The notes below the pieces were generated by a model, which did no database searches, was not told the DNA's origin, and saw nothing but the letters and a program-made list of their open reading frames with translations. 64,000 nucleotides of DNA from Blattamonas nauphoetae (lineage: Eukaryota; Preaxostyla; Oxymonadida): assembly GCA_033064195.1 (NCBI GenBank), contig JARBJD010000006.1, positions 434,001 through 498,000 on the forward strand. Reading direction: 5' to 3'. A program made the position numbers and the translations under genes. Shown here piece by piece: positions 6,978 through 40,255 of the stretch (positions are counted from its first letter, which is position 1; every line of letters begins with the position of its first letter).

Positions 6978-8532
6978 TTAGTAACGATCTTTGTCGATAT
7001 CGCCTGTGAACCCAGCTTCAAAATCCAATGATTGATCTTGGTCTGATGACAGTTTCTCGACTTCTTGATTACCCTCATTGGAAGGTGCAGTTCGCTTAGC
7101 ATGTAGTGCAATCTTGATAGACGTCTTAGTCGTTCTGGGCATCCTTGATGGAGTGAACAGGATCGAAATGTAGCATGCGATCGGCACTCCAATCCAGTGC
7201 ATCCCGACTGCATAAAACTGTTCAAATGACGACGGTGAGATTTGCTGCATGAGGTTGAATGCATGATACACAATAAAAGCGAGGACAACCATCACAATGA
7301 ACGCCTGGTATCGCCCCTTGATGGCTGTAGGATGTTGTCTCGCAACAACAAACACACGAATGACCGAATATCCGAGCCAAAAGAACCAAATAATGTAAAA
7401 TATTGAGGCGGATACTGCCACTACGCGAAAGGCGCCGATATTTCGAAGTTCGGTTTCGTAGTCCAAGAATTGTTGGATTGCAAGAAAAATTAAAACACTC
7501 AGGTCAAGAAGACCGTAAACAACGATGAGGGTGATACGAGGGAGGTAGAAGGAGAGAATTTTGGGCTTGTTTGTGATGAATCCGCCGAGGAGGACAAGAG
7601 GGTATAACATGAAGAAGCATTTGCCCACTTCCAAAAAGATATGGTCAAGAATATGCCAAAATCCACCTCTTCCGGTGAAAACGAGTGCATATAGAGGGTT
7701 TGTGTAGATGAGAGTGATGATCATGAGAGGGTGGATCCATTTTTGTTCCGCTGACAGTTTCTCGGTCACACGGCACGAGGAAACAATAAAAAGGATGTAT
7801 ACAAATAGCGTGAGACCAAAGAGGCAGTACCGCATGACGCACTATCAAACGAAACGTCGGATGAGAAAAAGTGACAAAACAGACGGCTGTAGCTTCAAAA
7901 GACATATTATCTTCACGCCATGTGATTCTAAAGTCGTTGATATAATCCTTGACACTTTCCAGGCCAGGGGTCTGAACAGGACAGACCGAGTATGAGACCG
8001 GGACATCCCCGACTTTCACCAGCATTTGCTGAGAGATTAATGAGCGGAAAATCAAACGTTTGAGCATGTCTCTCCAGGTCTGCAGTGAAAGCGGACAACC
8101 CTTTCTTCTTCCGTTTTTTTCTTCAAATCTTCTGTTTTGACGGTGATTCGGAGATCGAAGTTAACACCGAGTGAGTGCTGATTGAGAACTGGGCTTCCAT
8201 ACAAAACAACATTATTGCCTGTCGGTGGTGGATGATCATGATAGTTTAAGCAGTCAGTTGGGTTGTTGATGAAATCGAACTCATTGCATGTCTCGTTCGT
8301 TTTGTCACCACATTTCGTGTTGAGATCCGTGGTTAAATATTGATTTGGCATTAATAAAGAGAAGATTGGACCAAGCTAAAGATGGTGATTGCCAAGAAAT
8401 GAGAGAAAAGAGAATTCTTACGATCACAACCACCCAGAAGATAATGCTCCAAGTCGTAAATGGACATGGAGTACAGTGCTGTGTTTCTAAGAAGAGAACT
8501 GATTTTTCAGCTTGGATGTGACGATGTAGCAT
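6978..8532 (-). CDS. TMEM181 / Wntless-like transmembrane protein (4 exons)
   Basis: Predicted 478 residues from exons 8422-8532, 8058-8375, 7885-8028 and 6978-7841. Introns are 46 nt (GTAAGA...TTTAG), 29 nt (GTTTGA...CTCAG) and 43 nt (GTCTGT...ATAG), all phase 0. Order: short cytosolic N-terminus, TM1 (SIIFWVVVILGPIFSLLM), a lumenal/extracellular domain of about 170 residues with paired cysteines and an NETC glycosylation site, then a 7TM block and a polar acidic tail. Within the 7TM block, LSFYLPRITLIV, an AIQQF segment and ARQHP resemble the FYLPK / WQ / RHMP segments of animal TMEM181, which carries the Wntless-like transmembrane domain. Members act in Golgi/endosomal traffic or as surface receptors; which applies here is not shown. 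The 43-nt intron is the least secure. Same strand as, and 191 bp downstream of, the TmcB-like gene. Confidence 0.75.
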
Positions 8533-13766: not shown

Positions 13767-16700
13767 CTAAACAGGTAGAATGCGCGCTTGTAAAGCATGA
13801 CTAAAATCCGGATTGAAATCCAAGAAGAGATAGCACCCCTTTCTCTCCCATTCCGCGAAATCTTCGTTCTCGATGTTAACTTCAGCCAGCACCGATCTCT
13901 TCGCCGCTGACGAGAAAAGAGGCACCAAATGCATTTTCCTCGCGGCAACGTCCTGTCCCAACGGGATGAGCGCGGACGGTGCGACAGTGTCAGAGTGTGC
14001 GGAGATAAATTCAGAAGGGGTATATTGTGGTGAGTGCTTGTCTTTCGATGTGTGTGTACGAGCTGCACGTATTTTGGTTGAAAGAAGGCGGAAGAATTGT
14101 GTTGAGATCAAATTGTTGGGAGAGGCAAAGGGGGATATACTGCTGAGGTCGATGTATCGTTCGACTTGCGACTGAGCCCATTCATTTCGGTGGTATTGCG
14201 AGTTCGAGAAATCTGCCGCAAGATTTCTGTCAATCATGTGCCGTGTGACTCGGATGACAGGAAACTGAGTCACTGTCGGAGACGGGATGGCTCCTGGCTG
14301 AGTCTCCACAAATCTCCCGTTTGCAAAGTCCCTCGCAAAACCGTTCATCGTAATTCCAATCACATAACTTCCAATCACTCCATTTTCAACAGTCTGGAAG
14401 CTTTCGCCGGGTGTGAATGAGAACGGGTCGCGACAAACGAAGGTGAAGGACAAGCGATTGGTCTGTTCGAGCGAGAGAACGACAGGCGAGTGTTGTGTTG
14501 AAGGTTTAGAATCGTCGAGCTCAATGAGTTGAGAAACTAAAAATGACGAAGGAGAGATTAGCAACGACAGGGGGAAGAGCGACGGATGCTTGCTTCCTGG
14601 TCGAATGACACCAGTGAGGAACTTGTGAAGCAACTTCAGCCAAAGAACGACATCCCGAAAGCGATGTGACACATGATACGGAATGGATGTCATCGCCAAA
14701 AAGAAGGAGGGGAGTTCCTTTCGTGACCGAGTGGTGAAAGGAGAGACAACAGTATTGGATGACGCGAGGGAGAGAGACGTGAGAGGATTCGCTGAGGTGT
14801 AGGCGAGGGAGAAGCAAGCCAAAGAAGAAATGAGTGTTTGGATGATCTGATTGAACAGAAACATTTCATCGAAAATGAGATCTGCAAAGAAATTGGCTCG
14901 ATCGCACGAATGACCCAATCTCGCAGTCCACAACTCAGAAATCGGGAGTTGTGGTGGGAGGTGAGAAAAGAACGATGTTAAAGATTGATGGAACGTCTCC
15001 CGGTGGAGAGATTCCAATTCTGTTCGATTGTCGACTGTTTCAGAGTCGGTTGGGACTAGAATTTCGACTGTTTTGAGCATGATCTTGGCGAGGCTGTGCA
15101 AACCCACCTGAACCGACCCAATTGTTGACTGAAACATTGCTGGAGGAGGCGCAACGCGAAGAGCAGAAAGGTACGCAATAGCCTTCTTCCGAGTGAAGCA
15201 TCGACGGATGGGGAGGGGAAGAACAAGAGGGAGGATTTGTGTTACAGAAGTGTTTAACAAAGAAAAGAAATTATGATTTGGGAGAAGTATGTTTGGTACA
15301 AAGATTCTTTCAACCAAAAACTGGACAGAGTATGCTTCTTGCGATGGGAGATCTGTTTCCGTCCAGAAGAACTTGACAAGAGTCCGACATCCTTCGGTGA
15401 AGAACGTCGTTATTTGTTCTCTTGCGGGAGACGTGGCGAGGAGTTCCTTCATATCCTTTCGTGCGATGTAAACATCGTTAATCTTGGCTTGGAAGTCAGG
15501 AACTTTCGTTTGATAGAAATCAACATAGTTCAAGATCCATTCCACAATGCGGAGGAAGAATGGTTGAGAGAAGAGTGTGTGTGGCTGGGCCAGCGCATGG
15601 TTTGGTTCAAGATCGGGCGAGATCACGTCTGAGCTCTGAGTAAGTGTTGTCTGCATATGCCACGCAATTTTGAGTCGATTGATGAGCAAGCCCCAGATGA
15701 GGGAGGTTCCGAAGAGAAGAACCGACAACAACGCGTCCCTATCGACCCTCTTCTCGATGTCTGGAGTGATCCACGAAATTACAGTTTGGACAGCTGTGAC
15801 GAGCGAGCTGTCGAACTCCGTTTTGAGCAATGTCAGTGACGATCCGATTGCTGTTGTTAAGACATTGGAATTGGTGGATTGTTCGACACCGGAAATCACA
15901 ATCGAGGAGGTGGGAACAATTCGTGCTGGAAGAATGCTTTTTGGTTGGTCAGTTTGGAGAATGACGAACTTATTCTGGACCAGGCCTTCGTTCAGACAGG
16001 CGAATCCCTCCGATTCAAGATTCCCTCGGGTCATATTCTGAATGGAGGACGATCTGTCCAAAGGATCACACCGAATCATGATCGGTGTCGTCGAGATCTT
16101 CTCAGTTGTCATGAACAGCTTCCATCTGTCGATCAGTGCCTGTGGAATGGTCACTTTGACCTGTTTGGCAGGATTCATCGGATGAGCAGTGAAGAGACTC
16201 AGGTCCAGTTGCAGTTTCCCGTAGCGAAGAGGATTCTCCTTCCGAAACGACTTCGATCGGAGGATTTGCGGCTGGTTACCGGAACCTGCTGTATCGCCAT
16301 GAAGAAGTCGAGAATCAGCGAGCTGCTTTTGGGTGAAGACTGGGAGTGTGTCAAATAGGGACTTCCTGTCGCAAATTCAGCAAAGTACGAGCCGATCGAT
16401 AATTTTCCTTTATCCTGATCGGTGCTGGCGGGGTTCGTGAAATCATCATACGATTGATTCTGGACGGTCATGATGAATAAAAACGGGAAGGTGATGTTTT
16501 GTGTGCGAACACTGCCCGCGTGTTTGGGAAGACTCGATCGCATTTGTGCGATAATCCGGAAAATGAACCCTCTGAGAAGAGATTCGCTGATCTTTTGGAG
16601 TTCTTTGTCGTTTTCAGAGTAATTCCTCTGAACCGGCTTGCCAAGAGGTCGAGGTATCCTTAATCTGATGAGTCCCGTTGCAAAATCAATTTCCAACTGA

Positions 16701-19700
16701 TCTTCATTCTCCGAGAACTGTTGGTTTGATCCCAAATGTGCATTGAACGTGTTGGACACATGTGATCTCGATATTTTCGATTGTTTGCGGATTTCAAAGA
16801 TTGAGATGGCTCTTCGGATAGATTCGTAGAAGAAATTCTCAATCTGTTGAACTGTCGGGACCCCATATTGAATGTACGGCTCCCGGATCAACGAGCTGAT
16901 GTCATGGCGTTCAATTTGAGTCATTCCCGCGATGTTCGAAATGCATCGAAGAGCAATGATAGCTGAATGGATGCGTGAGACGAGAGTGTCAATAACTTGG
17001 CTGTGAACTGACCGATCAGCGATAAGATCAATCTCGCGCTGAAGATCTGTTGAGCAGTTTGTGACGATCGACTGCAATCGAGTCATGTTGTGGAAGAAGC
17101 GTTCAATTCCCGTCCTCGATGAAACGTCGTGATGCTCCATCATCTCATCCTTGGCACGGAGAAGAGTTTTGATGTGAAGCGAGATTCGACCATACGAAGC
17201 TTGTCGACGAGTCGTCATGTCTGACATCAAAACAGGTTTGATTGCGATGTTTTCGAGACAGCTTTTGAAACAGGATTCCATTGAGATTGCTGCCATGTTT
17301 ATCATTCGACATTGGCTCGGGATCATTGTGTCGAAGAGGCATGGATTCTGCGAGGGGAGAAGGGCAGTTTCATCCTTGATGATGATGAACAAGCGGAAGC
17401 CAGCGTTCACAGTAACCTCCTGCCCGAACAGAACGACCGGGCGGACAGGTGCAGTCTGCGAGCACAAGCAGAGAGTGTCTAAACAATCGATGAGATTCTG
17501 GAGACGAGGTTGAGCGACACATTCGCAGATGCTGATGTAGTTGACGATGAGTGGAAGACCATTGACAAGAGCGTCAATTGCGTGGGAGAAAAAATCTGTG
17601 TCTAAAATGTGAACATGAGTCACATGTCGTCTCGTTCTGAAATAAGCAAGAAGAGCATGCTCTCCAAAGCCAAAAGAGTCGAGAATGACAACTGGTTGAC
17701 CAGCAGTGGCGAGTTCAAGGAGAGGGATGAAGAACAGACTCGGCATGTTGATTCTCATCCCACTCGCTTGCCCATCGTAGAATGAAGCTGGTCCATGCAA
17801 CACATTCCATGTTGGAATGAGGCGCGATGGGAGTGAGTCTTTGGCAATGGAATGGGAATACTCGTCGTTTTCGATGTTTCCAGTGACACTGATCGAGAGA
17901 CATCTGTAGTCTGGAGGTGGTGGTGATTGAAGGATGTTCGAGTTGTTCGATTTGTTCAACAAGAGAGACAGATACTTCTCTTGACTTTCTGGATTCGCAT
18001 CCAAATCCTGTTTCAAGGCCTTTCGGAGTTCGTAGGCACCGGAGAAGGGAATATCACAGATTATCAGACACCGCTGCCACTTCTCCACGACCAGATCCCA
18101 CTCACTCAACGGGACACAACCGTTGAAAGTGATGAAAGCGCCTGCAAGAGTGGAATCACCCCTGCAATTGATGATGTTATGTTCATCAATCTCCAGCTCG
18201 TGGATTGTCTGTGAAATCAACTTCTCGACCAGCTTGATCTGTTCGGGAGAGAGTTTTGGCTTTGTTATGTGACGATCAATGAGACGGAAAGGGAAGATGC
18301 TTTGAATTTGTAGAAGCAGAGCAAGCAATCGGACACGTTCATTGTCGACATCAGCAATCAATCTGCTCAATTCAGCCAGTGAATTTGTTAGTTCAGCCTC
18401 GATTCCTGCTTCAGACAACTGTTTGTGTGGGATGAGTGATTTCCGGATTCGATGATGGGAGAGGATGCTGTCGACAAAATCGAAAAGAGGAAGAAGCTTT
18501 GTGATTTCTGGCTTGTCTTTCGGGACATCATCAATATGGAGATCGATGAACGGCTGGATGAGCTCAATTTGTTCGTCACTGATACAATGCGGGTCAAATG
18601 AGACGATTTCATCCAAAAATCGACTTGTAAACAACAATTTCTTTGCTTGGATCATCGAACATCTCAGAATCGGCACCTTGGCCGATTTTTCTGTCCTTGG
18701 GGACGGTATTGGAGTTGCGAACGGTTCCGCATGATACGAAGCGGTTGTGATGGGACTTTTGAAATATTTCGGAGTTGTTGGGAGTCCTCTCGTGAGTCTC
18801 TCAAGTTTCTCGTCTTCTGTCAGACACATTTCCACAAAGTCGATTTCTGAAGCCATTGTTCGAGGTGTCAGAGACGACGCTGGTTGCGAAGGAGGGAGAG
18901 GAAGTGAGGATGGAATGACGTAGGTGATTGCTGTTGGGGTGAGTGGCTTTCGGAGAATGATGAAGAGGATATCGATCAAGTATCGGATGGAGACTGGCGG
19001 ATTGACATTTCGCTTCAAAAATGCCAAGTCTCGTAATTTCAGAATTGAGAGACGTTGCTGAGTCTCTTCGACTGTCACTGACTTGTCTCGAGTGAAGGCT
19101 GCATCCATCTTTCTGTAGTGCTCTCGGCATCTGACTGCCAGTCGTTTGATGTTTTGTTTCAGCATGTTTAGGGAATCCCTCTTCATCTTCAGATTCATCA
19201 TTGTTTGTTTGGCTTTCTCAATCAGGTCTGTCAACTGTGTTGGACAATGAGCTGAGAAGTGATGAGTAACAACGTGGTACAGAAGATCCTTTGGAGGGAG
19301 CGAACGCTTCAGAATGTCAAAGAGCGTGCTGTGGAAGGCCAGCAGCTTTCTTCTTCTCGCCTCCAATCCAACCATTCTTGTCGAACAGATGTCGACTACC
19401 GCATGTGACATCACAGCAAGAAATGTGGGTGAGATAACAGCCATCCTGAACGTCATCCACGAACTGTGAGCCCCGATGTGCGAGAAGTACTGATAATTGT
19501 TGCGAACAACATAGTACAGCCCAGAGATGCACGAGAGGTAGAGGGTATCCTCGTCCTCATTGTTCTTTTGCGATGAATTGAGAGCAATTGTGTTTGCCGC
19601 TTTTCCGAAGCTCATAAATGACTTCTCCAACGCGAGCAGTTGCATCGATGTGTTGTTCGTATCCACCGTTTCTGAGATGAACGACAGTTTTGGCTTCTCA

Positions 19701-22700
19701 CAAGAAAGAAAGGCCATCAGTGCTGTCGATGAGATTTGCTGGAGAATGAGGTGTCGGCTGTGTTGTGTCACAGCTCGCGGAGATTCCACGACATGCTGAG
19801 TGTTGGGTGGTCGGACGATGATCCGCTTGTGATGCGAGATGAGTGGTGTTTCAGCTGTGTGCGATCGTGTTTTGGGGAGTGGCGGATTTCGGATTTGATT
19901 GGAGTTTTCGTCGAAAATTCCGCTCGTCTTGTTGTTGCTCGAAGGAGGAGATGGCTTGTTTTGTTGGAGATAGTTGATCCGATTTCGTTTTTTTGGTTGT
20001 GTCCTCTGAACGGATGTTGAGACAATGCTCTGCCTTCGTTGCATGTTTACAGATGGTCGTCTGCCTTTGGATAATCTGTGAAGCGGAGGCGAATCATTCG
20101 GAGTCTTCGTCTTCGCCCTGAACTGTTTCTTGATCGTGTTGCTCGGTGTTGGCTGCTCGAATCGGTCCGAATCTGTGTCGTTTACTGTCTCCATGAACAG
20201 CTCTGTCGAATGTTCTCGATATCTCGGTTCTGTGAGTTGGCTGGTCAGTCGTCTCTGTGGCTGGTATGTCGATGTCTTATATCTCGAGAGAGGCGACACG
20301 TCTCGAAGTTTTGATTTGGATCCCCATCCCTTCGAAGATAACCGGCCGATTCTGATTCGCTGAGGAGTGAGACAGAGAGTGCTGACCCATCGGACAGAAT
20401 CTGGGAGGCGAGGTGGTGGGGGAGTTGGCAGGACATGAACGTCACGGATAGAAGGACATCGAGTGTGGAGATGCGGCAGTCCATTGGAAGGCGGGAAGAT
20501 GTCATCATCGATTGCATACAACAGAGCGAGTGATTTCCCGACATTCTTCCTTTTCGGATCATCCAACATGTTCAACACCGTCTTCGTCGCGACCATTTCC
20601 GCGTAATGATCTCGGCTGTACAAAATGGACGACCGAAGTCGTGTTTGAGCCCGACTCTCAGCAATTCTGATTCCTCTGATCTTTCCCAGCGTGATCGATG
20701 CAATCAGAGAGTTCCGATGTTCAGCAGCTGTGAATGTCTCCAGAAGGGCAACCTCAAACGATGTGAGGAACCAACCGAACATTTGGAGTCCTGGATACTG
20801 GTCCAACGAGTTCTGTTTTCTCATCGTCTTCGATGTCTCAGACGCGAGCGATTCTCGGAGGAACATATTTCCAGTTTCGACTCGCTCCTGTTCCTGGGCC
20901 AGCTGTTGTTCTGTGATCGAGAAGTCTGCAGTCTTTCCTTGCATGGAGGAGTAATGTGTAAGAAAGAACAAGAACCGATGCTTCTTTCGAAACTGTTCGT
21001 TGAGGTATGACTCGTGGAGAGCGTCTTTATTCCCAGACGACGAGATATCCATGAGGATTTGATGCATCTGCTCGTTTGTGAAGAAATACAACAGAGACAC
21101 GTTTGATTCAGCGAGGATGTATAAATAGGTGCTGACATCCAAAGGTGTGAGGACGTCCGGGGAGGAGTCACTTGTGATGACTGGATTTTGAGGGTGGTCG
21201 AGATCAAAGTCAGTTCGTGTTTCTGAACCAACACGGTGGCGAGTCGATAAGAACATGTTTGGCTTCGTGAACGAGAGAAGATCACCCAAACCATCATCTG
21301 TGTCCTTCGATGGCCTTCGGAGATCGACAGGATCAACGACAGGTGTCAGTGCAAGTGTGCTATTGACTTCAAAAGTGATGATCATTGGTTTTGGCGAGTT
21401 TATCACTGCCAGAATCATCTCCCGAATGTTCGCCAAGAATTGTGGTTTGGATCTTCCGATTCGGAGCGGGTAGATTGGGTACGAAACAGAGTTCGAAACC
21501 TGCTCGACGAAAGTGCTGATGACGAAGTGTGGGAATGTCAGGACAGCAACGTTGGATTTCTTAATTTTGGTGGCGACAGTGGCAGCTGTGCTCATCACCG
21601 AATAGTTCAGATTGTTCGGGTGAGGGTCTGTGGCCTTGTTGAGAAGGATTGAGAGCAGTTTCGTCTTGCTGTACGCGTTCTGTCCCAAGTCATCTATGAT
21701 CGATCGAGTCCTTGCGAGCCGAAATGCGTCGCTGATCATGTGAGCGTTCGGAATGGGAAGGAAGTCAAGAACCTCACTGAATGTGTCGAGATTTAGAGAG
21801 CTCTGTGTGAGAAGAAGGTTTCCAAAGTATGCGAGAATCACAACAAGTGTGAGTCTTCTGATCAGCGGGAGGCGATCAAGCAGTGTTTCTTCCCAAGCTC
21901 TCATCCACTCCACGACGAGGAAGCTGGGCGATTTGATGATCGAGTGATCTTCGTCAATCGCGTTTGCGAGAACTTGAAGGACTTTCATCGGATGAGAGCC
22001 TTGGAGTGGAAATGAGGTCACTTCTGGAAAAAGGGCGAGAAGCTGTTTCTTCACACGGAATGAATCAGGATCCAAATCGTTCACTGTTGCCGACAGGAGA
22101 CGACAGATAATCAAAGTCATGAAAGGAATCCTGGCGAGGATTGACTCGACAGCAAGTTTCTCATCAGTTTGGTCTTCCTGGAAGATCTGTTTGCTCTCTG
22201 GTCCAATTGATGGATGAATACCAAGAGCAGGGCGCAGCGTTTCCATCTCTTTCGGAGAGAAGAATACGCTCAGTGAAGTCATCAAATTCATCAAAGACGG
22301 CCTCGACTTCAACGGAAGATTGAAGCGAGTTTTCGCGCCAGGAAGCGTCCTTCTAACTCCAAGTTCGGTCAAAATGCCAAAGAAGTAGCTGTCCAGAGTC
22401 TCCAATTCCGGCACCAGAGTGCGTACAGGGATCGATGTGAGAGCACCCATTTTGAGATAGCGTGGAGGAAGCCACAATGCAAATGCAACGTGCGAGACAA
22501 AGCTGATGTGAAGCCCATCGCGTTGAACGTTCGACACAGAAGCCGTTCCTGAGACGAGTCCATCGGAGAAGATTGAATGGACGAAGTCGAGAGTGTGGAG
22601 TGAATACGGAGGGAAGAATGGAAACACGATGGTGGCATTTGTCAGACGGGAGTTTATGGGTTTGATCTTCGCTCTCATTGATCGACGTTGTCGTGCGAAC

Positions 22701-25700
22701 ATGTCCGAAGATATTGAATCGTCCCTCGGAGTTCTATCATCAGAGTCAGACGATGCTGTTGAAGTGAGGTGAATGGTTTGGTGGATGTGAGTCACAATAT
22801 CAGAGAGTGTCATTGTTGACAGGTAGGGCGAGATGGGGCAGACAAACGTCACTTCTGGTTCGTACGAGTTTGGGATGGTGTGAGGCGCCTTCACAAGCGA
22901 TTTCGACAGTCTCTGGAGTGGTTCCATGTTCTCCATGCAGATGATGGTTGGATGGTTGCTCTGGTTGTACAGTTCATGTGTGTGTTGAAATGTGATTTCG
23001 TTTCCGAGCGGAAATGAATCGAAATGACGAGTTGTCAACTTATCAGTCGACCTTGGAGTTCGTGGCGATTTGAGACTGGTTTGAGAGTTGTAATGACTGG
23101 AACTCTCAGGCATCGTTCGAGAGAGAGGAACCAGATGCGTCATGGTGACTGTATGGCTCGATTGTTTGATGGGTCTGTCGAACTTTTCCACTCCGCCCAA
23201 AGTAGCTCTCTCCCAGACTCCGGTTGAAAGGTTGACGATGTAGTCAGCGAGTGTCTCTCTGTCGGTTTCCTGGTTATTCATCTTTCGTCGAACCTCAGCA
23301 AGATCGCTCTGGACTGCTGGGTGATGGTGTGTGCGGATTTCGTGGAGTGTGGAAGGATTAGGGTTGATCTGGAACGAAGAGCAAACAAACTTTGAAAATG
23401 CGAGAGTGAATTCCGGGAACATGAACGCGTGACCTCCCACTCCCCAAAAAAACACTGTATGCACACACATCCAGCAGGATTCGCATCGAATCAGACGATT
23501 CAACCACAGGAGGGTCGATTGGGAGTTTCCACATATGTGCTCGAGGCTTTGAGGATCGTTTAACTTGTTGGTGTGTATGGTTGTTCCTATGAACTCCTGT
23601 CGACGCAAGGATGGATTGATACTGGCGGAAGATACCCATCAGGACGACAGGAAGGAGGTATTTCATGTGGGCTTTGTAGAGAGCGAGGGTATTGTTCAAA
23701 AACGTCGACGCAACGTTCTCAAAGAAGGCCGAGTTTCGACCAAACATTCTGTTGAATGAAGCAGTGCTGGTTCGAGCTGTTCTCGGAGTTGTCGATGAGT
23801 CAGAAGAGGAGTCGTCCTTGTTATTGAAATACTGTCTCACGAACATCCCTGCGTCCTGCAATCTCGTTGTCAGAACACCAGTCGCATTGATCATATGTCT
23901 GTAGATGTTTGAAAGAACAGGGTCCTTCATCCAGTTCTCTGTGACGAAGGAGTTGTACGTAATGAAGTTCGTCACCAGTTCTGTGTAGATGTGCTCAAAC
24001 ACGACGCTGGCTGAGGGAGAGAAGAATGGAACTTCCTTCAAGAACAGCGAGGTCGATGGTTGAGAGAAGAGGCTTCCTGGGATTCGGAGGACTGAAAGAT
24101 TGGCGGCAAAATCAACGGGAATGTGATCCATTGAGACGGTTTCAAACAGAATCCGAATGTTGGGCTTGAATCGAATCGTGAGCTGGTTTGGGAGGCGGAG
24201 GCAATTCGAGCGGAAGAGGGATTCGTTGTACTCGTTCATGATCGAACTGTCGCTATGAACTGTCCATTCCTGTCTCGGAGTTCCACCCTTCCTTCCCAGA
24301 GTGTTCATCACCTCATCCACAACAGTCAGTTGATCCGATGTGAGCTGCATTCTTTTTGTCATGTGCTGAAATCTTCTCCTAATTGCGTCTTCCTGATGCG
24401 AGAGACGAAGCTGATGGTTTCCTGTTTTCTTCCTGTGTGTCGTGAAAAGTGAATTGAGCTTCGATAAGTTCTTCATTGTGTGTTCAACATTTCGTTGACG
24501 AAATCTCGAATGCTGTTTGTCAGTCACGTTCTGTTTTTTCGTCGTTTGGAAGAATGAAAGCGTTGGGAATGGCCCGCGTAGTTTCTTTCGGAATCGTTTG
24601 ATTGGATTCGACAGATTGTTCATTTTGTGATGATAGTCGGCGAGGAGAAGCTCAATAATGTCATTCTTCGTTGCCCCTTCAGTTTCATACGGATTTTTGA
24701 CAAGAACACCCGTCTTCTCCAGATTAGTTCTCTTCTCTCGACTGTGCTTTGTCAATCCTCGAAGATAATCTGTCCTCAGATGCATCTGGAATCGTGATGA
24801 CCGACGTAGAAGTGATCCAAGTTTATTGATCCATCCTGTCGATGGATCTGGCGCATTTGCAGACAATTCAGCGATTGGAGGACGTCCATTGTGTCCTCGT
24901 GTGGAGGACGACGCCTCGTCGCATGTTGACGAGACTTGGTAGAGAGGCGGACTGCCAAGATCGATGACAATGAAGATTTCTTCCGAAGAGGAGAGGTGTG
25001 AATGCTTCATTTGGGTGAAGCTGGATTCTTTCGCCAAGTTTGGAATGATTCCGTCATCCCATCGATCAGTTGACGAGAGCGTGTGGCTGTTGACATTGAC
25101 GTTGGGCGGATCTGTCAACTCGAGGTTCGTTTGTCCGTCCTGATTGACGAATTGGAGTTCGTGGCTGAGGATTTCCTGAAGAATCTCTTCCTCCTCCGAA
25201 AACTGAGCCTCCTTCCCAAACGATCCAAGAAGCTGAGAGATCGTCCGAGACGATGCATTGATACGCACAACTTGAGTTGGGATTCCGAGTTGTGTCTGAG
25301 CCACAGCAAGCATGTTGATCACCGACGACTTGCCACTTTGTGGAGGGCCGACAAGAGCGACAGGAGTAGCTTGTTTGAAGGAGTGATTCTCGACTGGCGC
25401 GCTCCAAATCGGATCGCGAAGCATTTTATGGAGTTCCATGACGCAAGACACAAGACCAGCGACCTGTTCTTCCTTCGCGGGGAGAGAAGATGCGAGATTT
25501 TCGAACATGGGCAGTTGTGTTGTTTGAGAGGTCATTTTGAGGCCTTCGTAGAGATCAGCTGATTCCATTGCAAACATCTCGTTTGTATCCATTTCCTGTC
25601 TTAGCTTTCCAATGTCTGTTCCATCGCGAAGATTGGAGATGGACACGAACTGTGGGATTTCATTCAAACTGTCCTGTCCCGGCGACGGAAGAGTCAAATA

Positions 25701-28700
25701 AGACGATCTTCCGAAGATGACAGACTGAGGGATGGATGTGGAAGATGTTCGATCAAATCTGGTCCGGGCGAGGCTCAGAGCGTTGGTTGACTCATCGTCG
25801 GCTCCGTCTGTGTAGTCATTCTGAAGAGCTGTTCTCGATGTGATGGCGAATTTTTGGTATCGCGTTGTTTTTGGGGGAAGAAGGACAGAATAGGCAGTGA
25901 TGAGGCGATTCGTTGCATTGTCTCGTCCAACGCTTCCATCAGAGAGGAATGCAGTGGCCAGATCTTGAGAAAAGGTGATTCCTGAAACGGCTAACTGTGT
26001 CACAGTGTTGATGAGAGTCTTGTTGTACTGACTGACCTCAGGATACTGCGAGGTTGAGAGTTCTTTCTCCACATCTTGCAACGATTTGGGGAGACCAGAA
26101 AGGTTCAAGCTGTCTGAATACTTGAATATCATATCCACCACCTCTTGCGTGAATTCCGGGAAGAGTTGACGGAAGACGGTTGTTGCGATGAGAGGATCGC
26201 CTGGAAAGAACGAGTGTCTCAAAAATTGTCCGAGGGCGAGAGAGATGGAGAGGGCTTCGAAGATGAACAAGAGTTTCTCCTTCTTCACCGAATACTCCAA
26301 GAACGCGTAGTCACTTGTTGGGATCTGTGAGAGGATCGTGGTGATGTCTGACGTTTTGTGAGAATCAGTTTTGAGAGATTTCAGAAGAGAATCAATTGTG
26401 TCGTCAACATTGAGCCATTCTAACAGCGGATCAATGAACTTGTTTTTGTGTTTGAATGAAGTGCTCAGAATCGGGCGTATGAACCGATCAACAGCCATCA
26501 ACGAGAATGGACGTGATTCCATGGCGATCTGTTGAACTAAACTGACAACATACGCATTGCTCTGCTTCGTCGCTTGTTGATACGTTTTGATAAATGTTGT
26601 GGTCCGAGAGGCGAGAAGTGAAGAATATTGGTATCCACTCATTGCGAGGTGAGTGAAGAGAATTGCTTCGTCGTCCGATCGATACAACACGATTGGACGG
26701 AAGTTTGTTCGGAGCTGTTCAGGAAGAGCCTTGGGAATCGTCGGAAGATCCAGAGTGGCGAAGATGTGATGAGGTTGGAGCATTCAGAGTCAAAGATGGA
26801 AGGATATCGATGTTCTCCAGAAGTGCCCACTTTCCTCCCCCAACAACACCATGGATGAAAGGGACAAGAGACTTTGCGTAGTCGATATGTTCATTGAGCG
26901 AGAAAGAGAAGACTGTCCGACCGCAGATCAGGCCGAGTTCATGCACCCTGTCGCTGATGGTTGACGGAGACTGACCTTGGAGGAGAGTGAATGTGGGCTT
27001 ACTCGATTCCATCTTCGTCTGAGCCTCCTTCTTCTCGTGATCTTCCTCTGGCATTTGGGAGATGAATGTTGGTGCGAGTGCTTGTCTCTGGGCCCGAGCA
27101 ATCTCCTGCCAGAACCAGATAGTTCGAACAGACTTGGGAATATTCTCGATTGTGTTGAAAGGTAGTTTGAGTGTTTCAACAAGTCCATACGAAAAGATTG
27201 ATTGGAGGACAAACGGAGCATAATCAGCATTGTATGGAAAGTGATCCTGGCCAAACCAGACATTGATGTGCTGAGTTGAGTGGAGGGACGTCATGTCGAG
27301 GGAGACTGACGTGATGGATGTTTCGAATGTTGGAGTTGGGCGTGACCCGCTCATCTCTGAAACTGTTCGTTGAGAGGACATCGAAGAGATATTGTGGAAT
27401 GGAGTCATCCGAGACAGGTGCGAATCAGTGAGCGACTTCACAGTTGGCGAGAAGTCGACTTCGAGAACTGGGAGGGTGGCGATGGAGTCGGTGATGGTGT
27501 TGAGGAGATTGACATCACGATGGCTTGCCACAGAAATGAGAGTCTGGATGAACGACAGAGCAGAGAGGAGCGAGACAATGGCTGTTTCGATTTTCATTCT
27601 CAGTTGGAGTCGGGGATCCTGCCCGAGGAAGATTTGCATCAGTTGGACCAAATTCACAATCCCTTTCTGAAGACTTGTGCAGTGTCTCAGGAGTCTGTCG
27701 GCTTCCAATTTTCCGAGAGATACTTGTTGAGATGAGTTGTGAGAGCGAGGAAGATCGTCTGATCCAATCCATCTTTCAGAAATGTTTTTAAGAGAGACCT
27801 GTGCATTGTTTTGATCTCAACGAGAGGAAAGGCTGGAACGAGAGACGAGAGGTAATCGGTCAACGACTCGATCGGACCCACCTTGGCCGTTTCAACTACG
27901 TTGAATCGAACTCTAGCGCTGTGAGGAACAATTGATCGATCAAAGAAAGTGGAGTCAGATGACTCATAAGTGATTGGGGAAGCGGCCAGATCAGGTGCAA
28001 CATTCTGTGTGATCCCATTGATGCTGTCCATCAGAGTGTCCTTCGACAGTTGCGGTCGTTGGATGTTCGAAGTCGAGTAGTGACGCAGCAGTGTGAGGGT
28101 ATCTTCCGGGAATGGCTGCATTTCTCTTGAATCGTTCGAGGTTGTATCACTAAACGATTCATTGTCCGACAAATTCACATTGTCAGAATTGTCTTGTCCA
28201 CCTGTCTCGGATGTGGGTCCAATGCGGATGTTCCACGACGAATCGAAGAAGAGGACCATCAACGGGAAGCTCTGCACGATTGATTCGATCATCTTGGCGT
28301 TGACGCTGTTGTGGATGGCATTTTCAAGTCCAACGAAGAGGGACACTCTGTCCCCATCTGGCAAGAACTGGAGGGGTTCGTGAAAGAGGACTCGTTCCCC
28401 CATGCATCCCTGAAATCCAACAATTCGAATGACCCGCTGAACGTGTTTTGTTTCAGTTGTTGATTCAGACGCTTTCACCGACAATTGAAAAGACTTGGCC
28501 TTCGGGATGACCATCCCATTACGCGAGTTCGTCTTGAGTAGAAGCGTCGGTTTTGCTCCAGCAGGTTTAGCGACAGGAGTGGTTGTTCCACCAGCAAAAC
28601 TTTTTCGGCGTTGTCGCATCATGTCCTGTTGTGTGGGAGTGATATTGACTGGCGGGAGCCTGATGACAGGTCCAGCGATGTGAAATGAATTCTGTTTCAT

Positions 28701-31700
28701 CGTCGCTACGTTCACAGAATGGCGTCGACGGTATATTGTTCGATCTTTCTGGATTGGCTGAAGGACTTGGACAGTTTGGATCGCTGCTGTGATTGGTCGC
28801 GCAACTGGTCGTTGAATTGGAGTGATCGACGAGAGTGAATCAGAATCGTTATCGTTGTATGCAATTTTAGGTTCCATTTTTGAGATCGGCGATCGAGATG
28901 ATGATTCTGTGACATCTGTTCGAGAGATGTCTTCAGATTCAACTGATGACTGCGTGTTTGACGTTTGACGGAGCGTGAGTAATGGATTGAGCTGGTCGGA
29001 ATCAACAATGAGATCTGTGATTCCAGGAAAGAGTGGGCGGATGACAGTGACGAGATCTTTGGGAGATGCAGCATAGGAAAGAGATGCAATGATTGAATCG
29101 ATGGGAAGGAGATGGAGTGCAGGGTACAGATCTGCATTCATCTTCAGGAAAGGCATGATTTCTCGTTTGCATTGCACGAGGTGTTCAGAGATGTGAGGAA
29201 GGACATGCGAGATCGCTTCTCCTGCACCAAAGACTCGATACGGTGTCGGGTCTTTCAGAATACCGCCAATCAGTCTCGCCCAATCTTCGGTCAAATCGAC
29301 GAATCGTCTGTGGACTTCAGAGATCTGATTGATGACTGAACGAGATCCGAAAAGATTTCGGAGATTCACCCAAAGCGCTTGAGTCTCCATGAAGAGCTGG
29401 AGTTTGCTGGGAAGATCGAGGAGCGAGTCGCGGATCTCGAACAACTGACTGAGAAAGGGACTGATGTACTTGTTGTGATGGAGAGCAAGAATCTCAGTGA
29501 GAGAGTTCTGTGCCTTGCTGATGGCGTTGTTGATTGAGACGTCGCTGATTTCGAAGCAGTCGTTCAACATAATGTCGAGAAACTGCCATTTGTCTGCCCA
29601 GCTGTTGTAGAGAGTCGTCTGAAGGCGAGTGAAAGCAGGCTGGTCATCTCTGACGAACTCGAGACGAATCCTGTTGTGCCATGCGTCCAACATCTGGTTC
29701 AGTTCAGTCTCGACCTTGCTCTCGTGAAAGGCAGAAACTGCCATCGTTCTGAATTCTTCTTCGTGGTCTTCGATTGTTGCTTCAAACAGCTCGCCGAAGG
29801 TGGGGGAGATGAGTCCTTCACTGTCAGGAATGGAGAAGCATCGTTTCAGAATATCCTTTCCTGTTCGAGTAGCTAGCTCTTCCCAGTGGCGTCGCTTCAT
29901 GTGTCGTGGATCGATGTCGCAGATGAAGAGGCGTTGTCTGAGTGAAGTAAGTTCCATGTTCATCCGATTCTCGACCGGATGAGGCTGAGAAGAGGCGATC
30001 GGTGTGACATCAACGAGTTCGTGAATGCGCTTCAATTTTGACTGAAAATGGACTCTCTCCGACGAGACTCGATCAAGCTGGACCTCCAACAGACGAGAGA
30101 TGCGCAGATTTCCCAACCAAACCAGAAAATCCAAGTAGAACGACATCAACCCCTTCACATAAGCCATTCTGTTGATGGCACCTTCCAGTTCAACGCTCAC
30201 TGTCGTGTCCAAACTCAACATAACAGCCTCAGCGTTGACATCAGCGAGATGGTGCTTCTTCTCTTGCAGGTGTTCAGCGACCTGGTTGACCAAACTAACT
30301 CTCTGACGGACAGACAGTTCGAGAACCGTGTCATCAATATCGTCTTCCAAACCAAGTTGAGGGAGAGAGGCCAAGTACATGTTGATCTGAAAGACAATGC
30401 TCATTCGGGTTTGCTGGAATTGACTCATCAGAGTGCTCTGCTTCTCTGTCGACCATCTCGACAGATATCTTTGGAATCCAACGAGAATGTCAACCATCTT
30501 CTGCTGTTGGATGAGAGTGACTTCCAGAGGGGAAGGGGTTGCTGTTCCCAGTGTTGAGTAAACCTCGAGACAGCCGCGAGTGACAGACAAGATTTCTTCG
30601 ATGTTCGGTTCTCGATCAATCCCGTCAAGGACAGCTCTGAGCAGACTCACCCTTTCGATATTCTGAAGATCTCCAATGTTGGCTGACACTTCTCTGTCCT
30701 GTCCTGTCGATCCATCGGAGAAATTATATGATGCTTCCGATGAAATGTTGCGTCGGCCAAGGTTGGTGTTCAGAACTGTCTGAATTCTGTCAAAAGAATC
30801 TGAAACGATGGAAAGCAGATCTTCTGCGTCCGTCTTGACAACTTTATACAATTCCTGAATCAACTCCTCGATCTTTTCAAGAAGAACAGGGATCATCTGC
30901 GACGTAAATGAAAATCTGACAAAGCGGTTGATGGCTGCAGGAGCGAGCAACTCCTCCACAAACTTCAACGTCTCCGCAGGAACCTTCTGAGTCGCCAGTC
31001 CTTCCTGATCATCTGACTGTTGGTCGGGCGCATTCGGTAAAGTTCGACGTGATTGTTCGACTTTCGATCGGTCTGCATTGTGATCCTCTGAGGGAAGTAC
31101 TTCGGCCTCATCGTCGGACGAGAACTTCACAGATAGAAGGATTTCACGCCAAAGACGAAGATTGTTGACTGATCGTTGAATATATTCACATCGTTTCTCG
31201 ACGACGACTCGGATCTTCTCGACAGGATCGATGTTTTTATGGGTGGCGTTCATGTGGTTGGTGAAGGTGACAAACGAGACAAGAGATTCTTCACAGAACG
31301 GGCAGTCGTACATTATCGGGTCGGGATGAAATCGGAGAGTGGGTGTCGACGGCTGTCTTTCAAATGCAATCCGTGTGGGCAACCGAGTCAGATCCGGGAA
31401 TCCGAGGAGATACACAATATACGCTCGGTTGAGAATATCTTTTGGGATCGATGGAAGACTGTCAAAGTTAATCTCGACGAGTGGCGGATTGTCGACTGTC
31501 AGAGGAACCGCCAAACTGAACGTTTGGTTGTCTGTCTTCACATAATGTCTCCGTGGTGAAGAGATTTCGATACTTTCGTTGGAAATATGGGCTGGTCCTG
31601 GGGCGGAGAGGGATTTGTGAGTCTCCGCTGAAAAGAGATGTTGGTTTGTTGTGTGAGAGAAAGTGTCTGTGAGGAAATGCCGAAACATGGTCTGAAATTC

Positions 31701-34412
31701 CTGAGAGGTGATGGCATGGAACGAGCTTGGAATTGCAAAGGTTGGGAAGTCAAAGGGGTAGTTTGTGGTGCCAGAAAACTTCAATTTCTCTCCGATATCT
31801 GGAAGAGGGATGGCAAAGTCTGAAAATGTTCTGAACCTGTTTCCGAGAGGAGTAGAGAGATCTCCGATTGCTAAGAAGGCTGTTGTGGTCATAAATGTAG
31901 CGCGTATGAGAGAACTTGAGTCGTGAAGTCGTTGCCACACAAAATCCTGAGTGAGTTCATCCTTGGCTGTGATGGGTGATGTCATTATCGATGGGGAACC
32001 AGATCCATTTTCAGTTTGAGAAAATGAGTCAAGTGTGGAATTTATATCGAGATCCTGCGTCACATTTAGAGATTCACATTCTGATTCGGTTGGGAAGAGA
32101 AGCAACAATGGCAGGGTGTCGTTCTCGAAATCATTGTTAAGATGACGAGGATTAGAGGTTTTTTCAGCATCACTATCATCTTTATTTCCTGTAAGTGACC
32201 ATTCATTGAGATTTATGGCTGGTTGGATCACTGGACGAGTTTCTTTGTCGTCGATGATGTGTTCACTCGAGTCATCGAGTTGACGGGCTTGTTTTTCGTG
32301 AAAACGGTAAATTTGATTTCGAATCAATCCTTCTGTTGAATCTGATGAAAAGAAGTTCCATATCGGAAGGAGTTTAACGGAGTCGAATAAACATCTGATA
32401 ATGTTGTTAATCGTGCTTTGAATAGCTGATAGTGATGGCATTAGTACAGCCTGACCATCAATAAAGTTCACCTCAATGTGAAATAAGAAGTTTTCCTGTT
32501 TTGGAACGCACTTAGATGTCTCCGGTGTAAAAGATGTTGATATAGAGTTTGTAGTTGAAATTGAGGGTTCCTGGCTGTGATAACGGATGTCTGGTGTGGC
32601 TGTTTGTGACAAAGACGCCAGCGAATGAAGCAGTAGTTGATGGATTGCTTGAATAAATGACTGTTGATAAGTGTCAATGAGAGCTTTGCATGCAATAGAG
32701 ATTTCATCAAGTGCGTCTTGTTCTGTTTCAAAAAGGACCGGTTGGAATGGTGTAGTCTTTATGGAAAGACCAAGGCTTCGTGTGGACTGGTGCGAACTGA
32801 TATTATCAAACGACTGGCTAGTTCTTGACCCTTGCAGACATTGGGAGGTAATGGCATGAAGTTTGAGGTAACCGTTTTTGATGGCACCTATGCACGTGAT
32901 TAGATTCTTTTCGATGATTTCTGAATTGAGAAAAACGAGTTCGAGATTTCTGTCCATGTTTTCGATTATATTGTTTTCAATCTCCTCCAAAGTTGTTCTC
33001 GTGTCGGAGAGAGTGCATTGAAAGAGCTGAATTCTGCAAGTTTCAAGAATCATCCCTTCAATTTCGACGATGATTGCATCGACGAACTTTATGATCGACA
33101 TGAGGATTTTGCTCAATCTATCCAGATATCCGGCATATGGAAACTTGGCTGAATTTTCCCAAGTAAACTCAGACAGAATAAGTTGCTGGACGACATCAAT
33201 ACATCGTATATGAGGCAACAACGCTTCAACAACATTTGGATGGATTGAGCTGAGAATGGTTTTACGTCCTGTCAACTGAGAGATGATAACAGGTAGTTTG
33301 ATGTCGAACATGTAGGAATGTTGGAGAATCGAACGTGGAAATCCTGCAAATCGGATGATTTGTTTGAGATACCCCATTCGAGATAATGAGAGAAGCTCAG
33401 AGTGAAAAGCGAAAAAATCTGTATCCACAAGAATAGTAGGGACACAAAGTTTTGTATAAATGTTGGGTGAAAGATTATAAAGATGGGATTCTTCGTAAAA
33501 CAAAGAGTTGTACGTCGGTGTTGGACGATGAACAAAAGGAAGATCAACAGGGATATATCCAAAAACAGAAGTGTCATGAAATCGATTGAAGAGATTTTTG
33601 AGCAGCGAGGCCTCGTATTGGAGAAGATTGTCGCGAGCTAATGAGAGTCGTTTTGGGAGATTGGACAGCGTTGTGCGAAAAGAATTCAACGCCGAAGAAA
33701 AAGAAGAGTCGGAATTTGGGCGATTCTTTTCATGAAAGTTTGAAAAACGCTCAATCACCGAGAGAACGGACGGAACAAAACTTTTGAGGAGGGATTCTGC
33801 ATAATCAAGAAAAAGAATAGTTCGAAGATGATGGGGGACGTTACGGAAAACAACCTGATGAGTGAGAACGGTATTGGAGACGAATTTGCTGATCTCAGCA
33901 GAAGAGGTGGGGCTTGGTGATGGATTGTTGGTTGAGAACGGTCTCTCCGATTGAATTGACAAGGATGGAGAAATTTGTTGAACAAGAGTTTGAAAGATGT
34001 CCGAAAAGGATGGAGTTTCATTCCGGGAAGTAATAGTGTCGATTTGAGATGATGGTGACTGGAGTGCGAGCGATGTATAAGACACGGATGACGGAGTAAA
34101 GTGTAAAGTTGGTTGAGGAAGACGGAGTGAATCAAAGAGGTGATCGCAATGGGAGATGAAAGAGTAGATTGACGAGGTTAACGATTGAATGTGTTCTCGA
34201 GAAAGCGACACAGACGAAGAGAGGGGGAAATGAGAATGATGATAATGAAGCGGCTTTTGTGGTGAATCTTTGCGTGTCACAAGTCGATTGATTAATGATA
34301 TGAGGAGCTCTTTTGCATTTGGATGTTTTGAGTTATGTTTCTGTGGAGAGGACATTGAGAGATAAGAAATCATCGAGGAAGAGTTAATATACCATGATGT
34401 TTTGGACGACAT
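13767..34412 (-). CDS. Giant divergent dynein heavy chain, AAA1 ATPase motifs lost
   Basis: One gene of about 6,860 codons, though it appears as five open frames. Start ATG 34412 follows an in-frame TAA. Landmarks in dynein order: tail; linker (RRHWEEL near the canonical RHW motif; GSRSVINQISEVHRRF); AAA1 with no GK[ST] (GQSPSTISDR) and LLENIDIL for CFDEFNRI; IFATLDL...LPEQLRTNFRP as in FITMNP...LPENLKALFRP; AAA2 with intact P-loop GPPQSGKSS (25324-25350); AAA3 and AAA4 without P-loops; stalk and microtubule-binding domain (about 18.5-19.0 kb; NPPVSIRYLIDILFIIL, FLDEIVSFDPHCIS); AAA5-AAA6; C-terminal domain (13.8-14.5 kb; GVIGSYVIGITMNG, WERKGCYLFLDF). Frames join by 29-nt introns 27695-27723 and 16251-16279 and probably a 31-nt intron 23434-23464; one frame change near 26.78 kb is unexplained. 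The tail holds a C2H2 zinc finger (31239-31304) and AAA3-AAA4 a basic disordered insert. Typical length is about 4,500 residues. Probably a motor-dead structural dynein or a decaying gene. Confidence 0.82.
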
Positions 34413-34780: not shown

Positions 34781-37700
34781 ATGTCAAATCCATCCGATGA
34801 TCATCAGGAACACCAACTCGAAAACCCAACAGAAACCAATCCAAATGATGACTCGCCGCGTCCTCAAGATCAAAATCAGGATATTTTCCACATAAACAAC
34901 GAAGCACCCGGAGTTGCAACAATGTCATTTCCTGAGGCTCCTGCGTCACCATCTGTGATTGCGGATAGTAGCTCATCAGATATTATGACTTCTACACCGT
35001 TTCCAGTCAGTGGATCACAGATTGGACAGCCGATTCAGAAGAAAGAAGAATTCGTCCGAAAACCAAACCGAGAAGAAAGACATTGCTGCTTTGCAAACTG
35101 GCTCTTCTGCTTCATATTCCCATATGTGTGCTCCTGTCACCCGCTGACCGACAAGGACCTTCCAGTCGTCCACAAGAACGATAAATCAAAGCCGGCAACA
35201 GAGAAATTCCTGAAGAGGTACCGGGAGAGATTTGAACAATATATGGAAAAACTTACTGCGTATGAACAGCGGCTTGCAGCGAATCCACAGTATGTCTATC
35301 CACTTCGCGTTTGAAGGCCGAAAAAAACATGTCGGCTGTTTTTCCTGTTTCTGCCAAATAATCTCGATTCTGTCATTCTCTGTGATCTTATTATTCCTTT
35401 AGGACACACGAGAAACCCCCGAAAAGGCCTGGAATGATGCGCATGCTGATTCACACTCTTTCGTCCTATACATTCCCAGTCGGCATTGTGCTCATGCTTA
35501 TCGGGTCCGCCTTTCTATTTCTTAATCGTTTTTTGTTATTCTTGTGCTTAGTATTGCTGTTGACACAGTCCAGCCTTTTATGTCGAAAGGTGTTCTATCA
35601 GCGATAATTGAAAAAGAGAAGTTCAAGCTGTCAGGAGGACTGATTGGATCGGACAAGTTTCCGTTCTTCTATGTTCTGTGGATGATCATCGCACCGTTAA
35701 TCACATCCGTGTTTGACGCGAACTCCGGGCGACTTTTCTTCCACTTCTCCGCTCGGACACGTTCTGCAATTGTGGGAACTTTATACGACAAAGTCTTCCG
35801 GATCAAGAATATGGCATCAGCTGGATCAGCAGACACGGGTCGGATCCTTTCGCTGGTCGCTGCCGACGCTCGGACAGTAGCTGAGATGCTTCCAATGTTC
35901 ATTATGCTGTTCGGCATTCCATTGTATCTGATCATCCCGCTGATTTTACTCATCGTCGATTTCAAGTGGGTAGTCGTCGTTCCACTTGTCGTGATGATCA
36001 TTGTCCTTATCCCGAACTTTCTCCTGATCCAAGGAATGATGAAATACGTCAAAACATACATGGTCTACAACGATCAACGAAATAAGATTACTAACGAAAC
36101 ATTTCAGGGTATCCGTGTCGTCAAATACTCTGGTCTTGAGCGAGTTTTCAAGGCAACTGTGAACGTCCCCCGTGAGAAGCAAATCCACAATATATTCCTT
36201 CAATCGATATTGATGCAAATCATGGGTGCTTTTATGAAAATTAGCACGCTGGCCATCAATATATCAACATTCTCCGTGTACTGTGCCGTATTCAACGACG
36301 ATCCAACACATTTTGCTGCTGTCGTCATGCCGAACATGGGATATTTGATGATGATGACAATGCCGACTACAATGTTGCCGATGTATCTAGAGGCAGCAAT
36401 GATGATTCGGATCAACATCAATCGTCTGTCACAGTTCTTATACCTTCCCGAAATTGACGAAATGATTGTATCCGATGAAACAAAGCCAGCGAACCCAGAT
36501 AATGCTCTTGAGATCGTTAATGGCGAGTTCAAATGGGGTGATGCTCCAGCCATCCCACTCACAGAGGCAGAAGAGACCGCGCTGAAGAAAGAAGCCGAAC
36601 AGCGAAAGAAGGAAGCCAAATTAGCTGCTGCTCAAGAAGCAGCCAATCATAAACAATCATTGTTCGGTGCTGATCCCCATAACCCTCGTCCGACAACCGA
36701 TCCCGAACCGCATGCCTCCGACAGCCCCAAAGACAATTCAACAGCCGATACCGAAATGCCAGTGTTTCAACCAGCTGCCAACCCTGTTGAAGCTGCTGCT
36801 GAAGCTGGTACATCTGAGTCAAACGCTCCTGATGATGTTCAATCAAACCCTGAGAATCCTGCAGTCACACCTGGTGTCTCCTCGACCCCTGCCCCATCTC
36901 GCCCTCCATCACGATCAACAACCGCGTTTAGCAGCACAACAAACGCTGATGGGCCAACTTTGGTGGATATTAACATCACAATCCCGAAAGGCTCACTGAC
37001 GATGATTGTGGGAGAAGTGGGATGTGGAAAGTCGTCACTGGGAGCAGCAATTGTTGGAGACATGCAACGAAATGCGGGAACAATCCGAATGGACGGAAGA
37101 ATCACGTACTGCCCCCAAACAGCGTGGATTAACAACAACACTGTACGAGGGAACATCACATTCAACGCCGATTATGACGAAGAGAAGTATTGGAACACAG
37201 TTCGAGTGTGTGCTCTTGAACCTGATTTCAAGATCTTTGCCGCAGGAGACGAGACAGCCATTGGAGAGAAGGGAGTCAATCTGAGCGGAGGACAGAAGGC
37301 TCGAATCCAGCTCGCACGCGCAGTGTATTCAGATAAAGATATTTACATTCTGGACGATCCTCTGTCGGCTGTAGACGCGCATGTTGGGCGATATCTGATG
37401 GACAACTGCATCTGCGGGGTGCTGAAGGGCAAGACTGTCATTTTGATGACAAACCAGCTCCAGTTCCTCGACAGAGCAGACAAAATTCTTGTTTTGGACA
37501 ACGGCCGAATCACAGCCCAAGGAACGTATGCTGAGATTCGAGAGCAGGGAGTGAACTTCGACGAGTTCATCATCAAATCGGACAAGAAAACAGACAAAAA
37601 GAAGCAGAAAAAAGTCGAAGTGAAAGAAGAGGAGAAGACCGACGAAGAGAACGCCAAACAGATCCTGACCGAAGAGGAGCAAGAGACCGGAGGAATCAAA

Positions 37701-40014: not shown

Positions 40015-40255
40015 GGACACTCACCCTTTATTGCTTTTTGTCATACCTTATAGTTCTTTTTCTGTCATACTATGACATTTGATCACTCGGGAGAATCCTA
40101 AAGATCTCTAACTTTCTGTTCTGTCTCATTGTACTCCATTCGTAGTCAGAATATCTAATAGTTTCATCAATAGACGAAAATGTAACTATCTTTGTATGAT
40201 GATCATTGAATGTGAAAAGTGTTCGTCAGCAATTCGATCTGGCCCTGTCTTGATT

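Follow-up and report, generated by a model that had tools for sequence, protein, structure and literature searches.

Cytoplasmic, intraflagellar transport (IFT) and axonemal dynein heavy chains are built from the same succession of parts, which includes a linker, the AAA1 and AAA2 modules, a stalk with the microtubule-binding domain (MTBD), AAA5 and a C-terminal region. Of the AAA+ sites, that of AAA1 alone is said to be conserved in all dyneins, and AAA2 is described as a structural ATP site, which does not hydrolyse its nucleotide in canonical dynein and whose PS-I insert bends the linker (PMC4047620). A stretch of 64,000 nucleotides from the oxymonad Blattamonas nauphoetae (contig JARBJD010000006.1, positions 434,001 to 498,000; C556:434001-498000 in the numbering used here), referred to below as the window, contains on its minus strand a gene of about 20.6 kb. 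It is a relative of the dynein heavy chains, in which the recognisable parts stand in the dynein order and the catalytic motifs of AAA1 are missing, and it belongs to a family of giant genes with the same losses.

The nearest precedent found in print is human DNHD1, a ‘ghost gene’ among the heavy chains, described as an orphan and possibly turning into a pseudogene (PMC8754002). Like the giants, it is a divergent relative of the dynein heavy chains that has been kept without an assigned motor role (PMC8754002; PMC9916431). However, DNHD1 is a single gene of 4,753 residues whose hydrolytic ATP-binding site is still spoken of (PMC9916431), whereas the giants form a family of about 11–18 in which AAA1 is lost throughout; the two are set apart here by description only. 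The second relevant protein is RNF213, whose AAA1 lacks Walker A and Walker B and whose AAA2 holds tightly bound, non-hydrolysed ATP. RNF213 differs from the giants in having competent AAA3 and AAA4 sites, in being a ubiquitin ligase and in a linker without sequence similarity to that of dynein (PMC7311170), while the giants are dynein-derived by sequence and keep the stalk and the MTBD. RNF213 shows that a ring with a dead AAA1 and ATP bound at AAA2 is workable, though AAA3 and AAA4 are competent there (PMC7311170). No publication describing a class of AAA1-dead giant dyneins was found, nor any use of ‘pseudo-dynein’ as a term, in a search that left most subscription journals outside; the word dynein is missing from the main text of the paper on the B. 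nauphoetae genome (PMC10703272).

Loss of the AAA1 motor site in the giant genes

The genome (88.3 Mb in 837 contigs) was scanned with the AAA_6, MT and DHC_N2 profiles. Besides 15 canonical heavy chains, whose frames span 3,817–5,093 codons, and fragments of such genes, the scans returned a set of giant frames (5,609–8,213 codons) and two shorter pieces, C284 and C827. Ten paralogues could be aligned confidently with the window gene, eight of which lie in single open frames of 6,334–8,201 codons, compared with the shorter frames of the 15 canonical genes. Two of them were read whole, namely C5, a single open frame of 7,254 codons that has been deposited as a B. nauphoetae protein (P0001), and C323, a single open frame of 7,261 codons that starts with Met; the frame lengths of the other giants are those reported by the search. 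The eleven aligned members are thus the window gene, C5, C323, C24, C827, C379, C284, C335, C47, C28 and C1.

When aligned with the paralogues, the window gene reads GQSPSTISDR at the place of the AAA1 Walker A motif (26947..26976, minus strand, as are all its features below) and LLENIDIL at that of Walker B (26800..26823, in the context WALLENIDIL), so that there is neither a P-loop nor a DE pair. The Walker B place of C5, WGVIENVNIL, faces the canonical WGCFDEFNRI in a profile alignment. Walker A is missing in all eleven aligned members and so is the Walker B Glu, the Asp surviving in three of them. Both losses had been proposed from the sequence alone, and a corrected gene model restores neither GK[ST] nor DE in AAA1. 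The canonical heavy chains of the genome serve as a control. In each of the 15 whose frame covers AAA1, Walker A reads GPAGTGKTE and Walker B contains DE (as CFDEFN in 14 and as WGDFDEFN in C366). GPxGxGK[ST] is shown by 24 of the 26 loci scanned for it, which overlap in genes and represent the 15 canonical genes and C667:430k; the other two loci (L025 and L033) have frames of 702 and 530 codons, which need not reach AAA1.

The AAA2 site is better preserved. Its P-loop, GPPQSGKSS in the window gene (25323..25349), conforms to GPxxxGK[ST] in 11/11 members, and it is followed by a Walker-B-like EEIFIVIDLG (24954..24983) with an Asp and no catalytic Glu. The Asp is kept in 9/11 members and followed by Glu in none; an AAA2 P-loop without a catalytic Glu is a feature that the giants share with ordinary dynein heavy chains. 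GPPQSGKS at AAA2 is the only match to [AG]xxxxGK[ST] in the five blocks of the window gene, and therefore the P-loops of AAA3 and AAA4 are absent from it, in agreement with the sequence-only reading. C5 and C323 likewise contain exactly one P-loop each over their whole length, and on sequence criteria the AAA3/AAA4 place has none in any of the three members read whole.

The PS-I motif of AAA2, W[IVL][ED]x[ML]N, occurs in 10/10 canonical proteins and the sensor-I pattern TMNPGYAGR in the 4/4 canonical proteins examined, and neither was found in any giant fragment. The giants therefore differ from dynein heavy chains in lacking, by their motifs, Walker A, the Walker B Glu and sensor-I of AAA1 and the PS-I of AAA2, as well as in their large inserts. 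Loss of the motor in the family is well supported.

An alternative is that the giants are re-engineered and not motor-dead, with another site or an altered AAA1 still driving a nucleotide cycle. The AAA1 replacement is indeed conserved in most aligned members, as DR-x-x-E, then CG, then G-x-W-[GA], the AAA2 P-loop and in most members its Walker B Asp have been kept, and the AAA3–AAA4 region could not be aligned. However, a Glu follows the Walker B Asp of AAA2 in no member, ATP is not hydrolysed at AAA2 of canonical dynein either (PMC4047620), no further P-loop occurs in C5, C323 or the window gene, and PS-I is absent, which makes a surviving nucleotide cycle improbable.

Seven more divergent giants (C135, C2, C223, C13, C246, C667:169k and C712) have no AAA1 P-loop at the place assigned to AAA1 by eye. 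Their kinship is based on domain matches, which lie below the curated cut-off in C13, C223, C246 and C135 and above it in C2, C667:169k and C712. A downstream P-loop is kept in five of the seven, and an AAA2 P-loop in 16 of the 18 AAA1-dead giants overall. The AAA1–AAA2 region was read from 16 further giants and from C323, and all 17 pieces are open. C827 and C284 occupy two frames each and may be broken too.

Two other large frames deserve mention. C712 (C712:30501-37265, L066) is a frame of 8,213 codons with a stalk/MTBD match of 91 bits and no recognisable AAA1 P-loop, and is perhaps a separate route to motor loss. The heavy chain C667:430k (C667:426501-434216, L030 and L065) has 7,273 codons, long acidic and basic inserts and a long branch; it was considered as a family member and rejected, because its AAA1 is intact (GPSGVGKTE and LLDEIN) and it stands among the canonical dyneins in the tree. 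Giant size may therefore have arisen at least twice.

Dynein descent, clustering and selection

The Pfam model DHC_N2, the dynein linker, matches the first open frame of the window gene (28968..30167) with E=3.5e-29 (3.3e-29 in the genome scan). A profile covering this linker (A2) matched 82 PDB sequences at E<=0.001, the best at 7e-32; the best 60 of the 82 are dynein heavy chains, identified by name or else by entry and length, as some are listed under a generic name or that of another axonemal protein.

The C5-anchored family was compared with canonical dyneins by hhalign, and the matches follow the dynein order, with the percentages given here being hhalign values. The linker (C5 residues 1122–1684) is matched at 99.9%, AAA1 (2248–2524) at 98.2%, AAA2 (2874–2966, 3275–3338 and 3301–3619) at 94, 95 and 93%, the stalk, MTBD and AAA5 (4851–5376 and 5130–5632) at 97.6 and 97.1%, and the C-terminus (6680–7044) at 87.6%. 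In the window gene, coiled coil 1 of the stalk, the microtubule-binding domain with an insert and coiled coil 2, continuing into AAA5, correspond to 18180..19210 (hhalign 97.6%, C5-anchored). The best PDB matches of the stalk profile are dyneins (1.1e-7). With the window frame as a query in its own genome, 10/10 paralogues match from the start of AAA5 onward, the stalk part is also matched in seven of them (C323, C5, C24, C827, C379, C1 and C28), and the canonical heavy chain C366 matches from stalk to AAA5 at 2.2e-4. The C-terminal region of the window gene (13770..16337) is 62–63% identical to C323, and the C5 stretch that matches it can in part be aligned to the C-terminal region of dynein. 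PDB profile searches with AAA3/4, AAA5–6 and the C-terminal region gave no dynein heavy chain at E<=5, so that for AAA5 and the C-terminus the evidence is the hhalign match.

As judged from these comparisons, the family descends from a dynein heavy chain and retains the linker, the AAA2 P-loop, the stalk with the MTBD and AAA5, and its C-terminus is probably dynein-like. The earlier recognition of dynein landmarks over 20.6 kb was right in its coordinates and strand, and the proposed profile comparison returned the linker, AAA1, AAA2, stalk/MTBD and AAA5 in the dynein order.

The tail carries a C2H2-like zinc finger (CPFCEESLVSFVTFTNHMNATH, 31239..31304), whose spacing, C-x2-C-x12-H-x4-H, is kept in the tails of all three members read whole (the window gene, C5 and C323); the Pfam match of the window motif is weak (zf-Di19, E=0.039).

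The linker tree (maximum likelihood, 30 rows) places the eight AAA1-dead members sampled, including the window gene, on one side of a 100/100 branch, apart from the canonical dyneins, and in it the window gene and C323 are sisters (100/100). There is a long-branch warning among the deeper giants, and the root serves for drawing only.

Over 6,716 codons the window gene and C323 differ by a dS of 1.81 and a dN of 0.32, which gives a ratio of nonsynonymous to synonymous change (dN/dS) of 0.18 by simple Nei-Gojobori counts, a rough value with dS near saturation (1.0–2.7). By block the ratios are 0.22, 0.22, 0.18, 0.15 and 0.10, not near 1, as a pseudogene would have had it. Of 45 pairs computed, nine of the ten most similar gave no estimate of dS, and for this reason dN/dS is quoted for the window gene and C323 only; in the other pairs among these ten the synonymous sites are saturated and the nonsynonymous differences are lower. 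The selective constraint and the clustering of the sampled members are both plain from these data.

The broken copy in the window

The gene runs from 34412 to the stop codon at 13767 (13767..34412) in five open frames, 34415-27687, 27816-26719, 26783-23295, 23638-16199 and 16376-13767. C5 matches the window by tblastn in six colinear blocks, which span C5 residues 75–7251 at 26–36% identity, and C323 in five colinear blocks, which span its residues 18–7261 at 55–64%. The five aligned blocks of the window gene comprise 6,799 codons without a stop, compared with 3.6–3.8% stops per codon in the other two frames, and this openness is far beyond chance. The sequence-only reading had likewise taken about 6,800 open codons as a sign of selection.

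Four frame breaks were located by DNA alignment with the intact C323. These are a deletion of 73 nt (J1, 27717..27718), a deletion of 86 nt inside AAA1 (J2, 26774..26775), a T7 run with one T more than in C323 (J3, 23446..23452), whose place is read through in frame in C323, and a deletion of about 1 kb (J4, 16337..16365, end approximate), which removes some 328 codons present in C323. Introns were considered as the cause of the frame changes and rejected, since the intact paralogues have coding sequence there, and at three of the four places residues are missing from the window copy. An altered genetic code, with TAA and TAG read as Gln, was rejected as well, because the frames are already open under the standard code and table 6 fails to join them.

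Parts of the gene have been deposited. The portion downstream of the 86-nt deletion is the B. nauphoetae protein BLNAU_1550 at NCBI (P0002, 4229 aa), and an upstream piece of 1432 aa is present as well (P0004). The BLNAU_1550 model spans J3 and J4 (window ~23366-23469 and 16340-16450, minus strand) by skipping residues that are conserved in the paralogues. No better copy of the window gene was found in its own assembly, where the best matches are the window itself and then C323 at 56%.

It could be supposed that the window gene is simply a dynein pseudogene, which lost its motor motifs by drift and represents no functional class. The four breaks of the window copy, the two frames each of C827 and C284 and the existence of fragmentary canonical heavy chains (C125, C301, C211 and C579) speak for such decay. 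The window copy has also changed faster, as at sites where it differs from C323, C5 agrees with C323 at 486 and with the window gene at 358. This excess is mild and agrees with a late loss of constraint. However, the AAA1 losses are common to the eight paralogues in single open frames, the low dN/dS between the window gene and C323 speaks for constraint, conservation among the five blocks is highest in the first AAA1 block (66% identity between the window gene and C323), and no nonsense codon has accumulated. The decay of the window copy therefore postdates the loss of the motor motifs. Plain decay as the cause of that loss is largely refuted and has little probability, while decay of the window copy alone is likely. 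Of the marks of a decayed pseudogene, namely dN/dS near 1, scattered stops and no intact relatives, none is seen here, apart from the four breaks that the window copy carries.

The breaks might otherwise be assembly errors, in which case the gene would be intact in the organism. Nanopore reads were used for the assembly (PMC10703272), one break lies in a homopolymer run, and there is no nonsense codon. On the other hand, homopolymer errors do not look like the deletions of 73, 86 and about 1,000 nt seen at three of the breaks, and Illumina reads served to polish the assembly (PMC10703272). This explanation is thus rather doubtful, and even if correct it would leave the conclusion on the family as it is. 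As four breaks stand beside not a single nonsense codon, they are either recent or errors of the Nanopore-based, Illumina-polished assembly, and the best reading of the window copy, which is broken in the assembly, is a young pseudogene or a misassembled locus. The idea of a structural ‘pseudo-dynein’ consequently stands for an AAA1-dead, dynein-derived class with intact members, eight of which share the losses in single frames and eight sampled members of which form one clade; it does not stand for the window copy, which is not intact.

Proposed role of the giants, and other genes

The explanation preferred here, with a probability of roughly 0.6, is that the giants are non-motile, microtubule-binding scaffolds derived from dynein, which keep only the structural nucleotide site, and that the window gene is a recently broken copy. 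The ring would be static, with an ATP at AAA2 that is not hydrolysed and, as in ordinary dynein, glues AAA2 to AAA3. It would keep its shape and present a stalk that binds microtubules without stepping, while the large tail with its zinc-finger-like motif and the long inserts would bind partners, and the giant protein would act as a microtubule-anchored scaffold or cross-linker. The occupancy of AAA2 by ATP, the intact ring, the microtubule binding and the scaffold role are all inferred.

Oxymonads have unusual microtubule skeletons, and the axostyle or the flagellar skeleton can be guessed at as the location of the giants. More tentatively, the family might serve an oxymonad as a set of giant cross-linkers of microtubules, in the axostyle or preaxostyle for instance, with a rigid ring locked by the AAA2 ATP, the power-stroke parts removed and the tails diversified. 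A family that has lost AAA1 throughout and keeps linker, stalk, MTBD and the AAA2 site under selection would separate the structural functions of dynein from its motor function and offer a natural test of the purpose of the AAA2 ATP; it also suggests how oxymonads may build their skeletons.

Several observations weigh against the scaffold explanation. The structural site is not universal, as C13 (GPVGSAKQ) and C2 (GPTGAGKA) are without a proper AAA2 P-loop. Within the eleven aligned members, the AAA2 Walker B Asp is replaced in C323 (by Glu) and in C284 (by Gln), and the W-x-D/E-G motif of AAA2 is present in just four, the subclade of the window gene. The patterns of PS-I and sensor-I are likewise missing from the fragment of C667:430k, a giant whose AAA1 is intact, and their absence is therefore supporting and not decisive for a dead motor. 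Among the AAA1-dead giants, the Pfam MT model finds over its cut-off only C712 (well) and C1 (barely); it misses C5, C323 and the window gene, whose stalk rests on the profile comparisons. AAA3, AAA4 and AAA6 could not be recognised by PDB profile searches or hhalign, and for this reason an intact ring is only assumed. The AlphaFold models made for the stalk/MTBD and AAA1 had too low a confidence to be used (mean pLDDT 49 and 35), and the near-saturated dS, given above, belongs here as well.

Orthologues with the same losses had been expected in other oxymonads, and limited protein-database searches found no relative outside B. nauphoetae. A single-sequence search covered candidates of ~2,535–8,067 residues, of which the best 1,415 by shared words were scored, a 7-row profile search ~2,088–6,643 residues (7,984 scored) and an 8-row profile search ~724–2,303 residues (7,986 scored). 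They gave only the two deposited B. nauphoetae proteins (P0001 and P0002), P0004, and eleven others (P0003 and P0005–P0014, P0014 being from Streblomastix), each with the dynein domains complete. As even C323 is not among the matches, the searches miss relatives of other lengths, unpredicted genes and those with few shared words.

Elsewhere in the genome, canonical heavy-chain fragments with stops or frame changes were noted at C125, C301, C211, C579:48-50k, C444 and C68, which are either intron-bearing genes or pseudogenes. A stretch of 234 bases with a weak, below-cut-off DHC_N2 match at the same profile positions occurs in nine places (C13:40966, C20, C124, C201, C457, C701, C123, C377 and C55) and looks like a dispersed repeat.

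The dynein-derived gene has several neighbours in the window. Divergent from it, two adjoining frames on the plus strand (35544-40011) code for ABC transporter membrane and ATPase domains, and they are followed by a frame of 2,917 codons (40196-48949, plus strand) that matches nothing in Pfam at E<=0.01. TmcB-type TPR repeats occur in two large proteins, encoded at 3-3233 (plus strand) and 50480-55639 (minus strand), and at 5832-6686 (plus strand) ubiquitin follows an N-terminal extension of about 215 residues.

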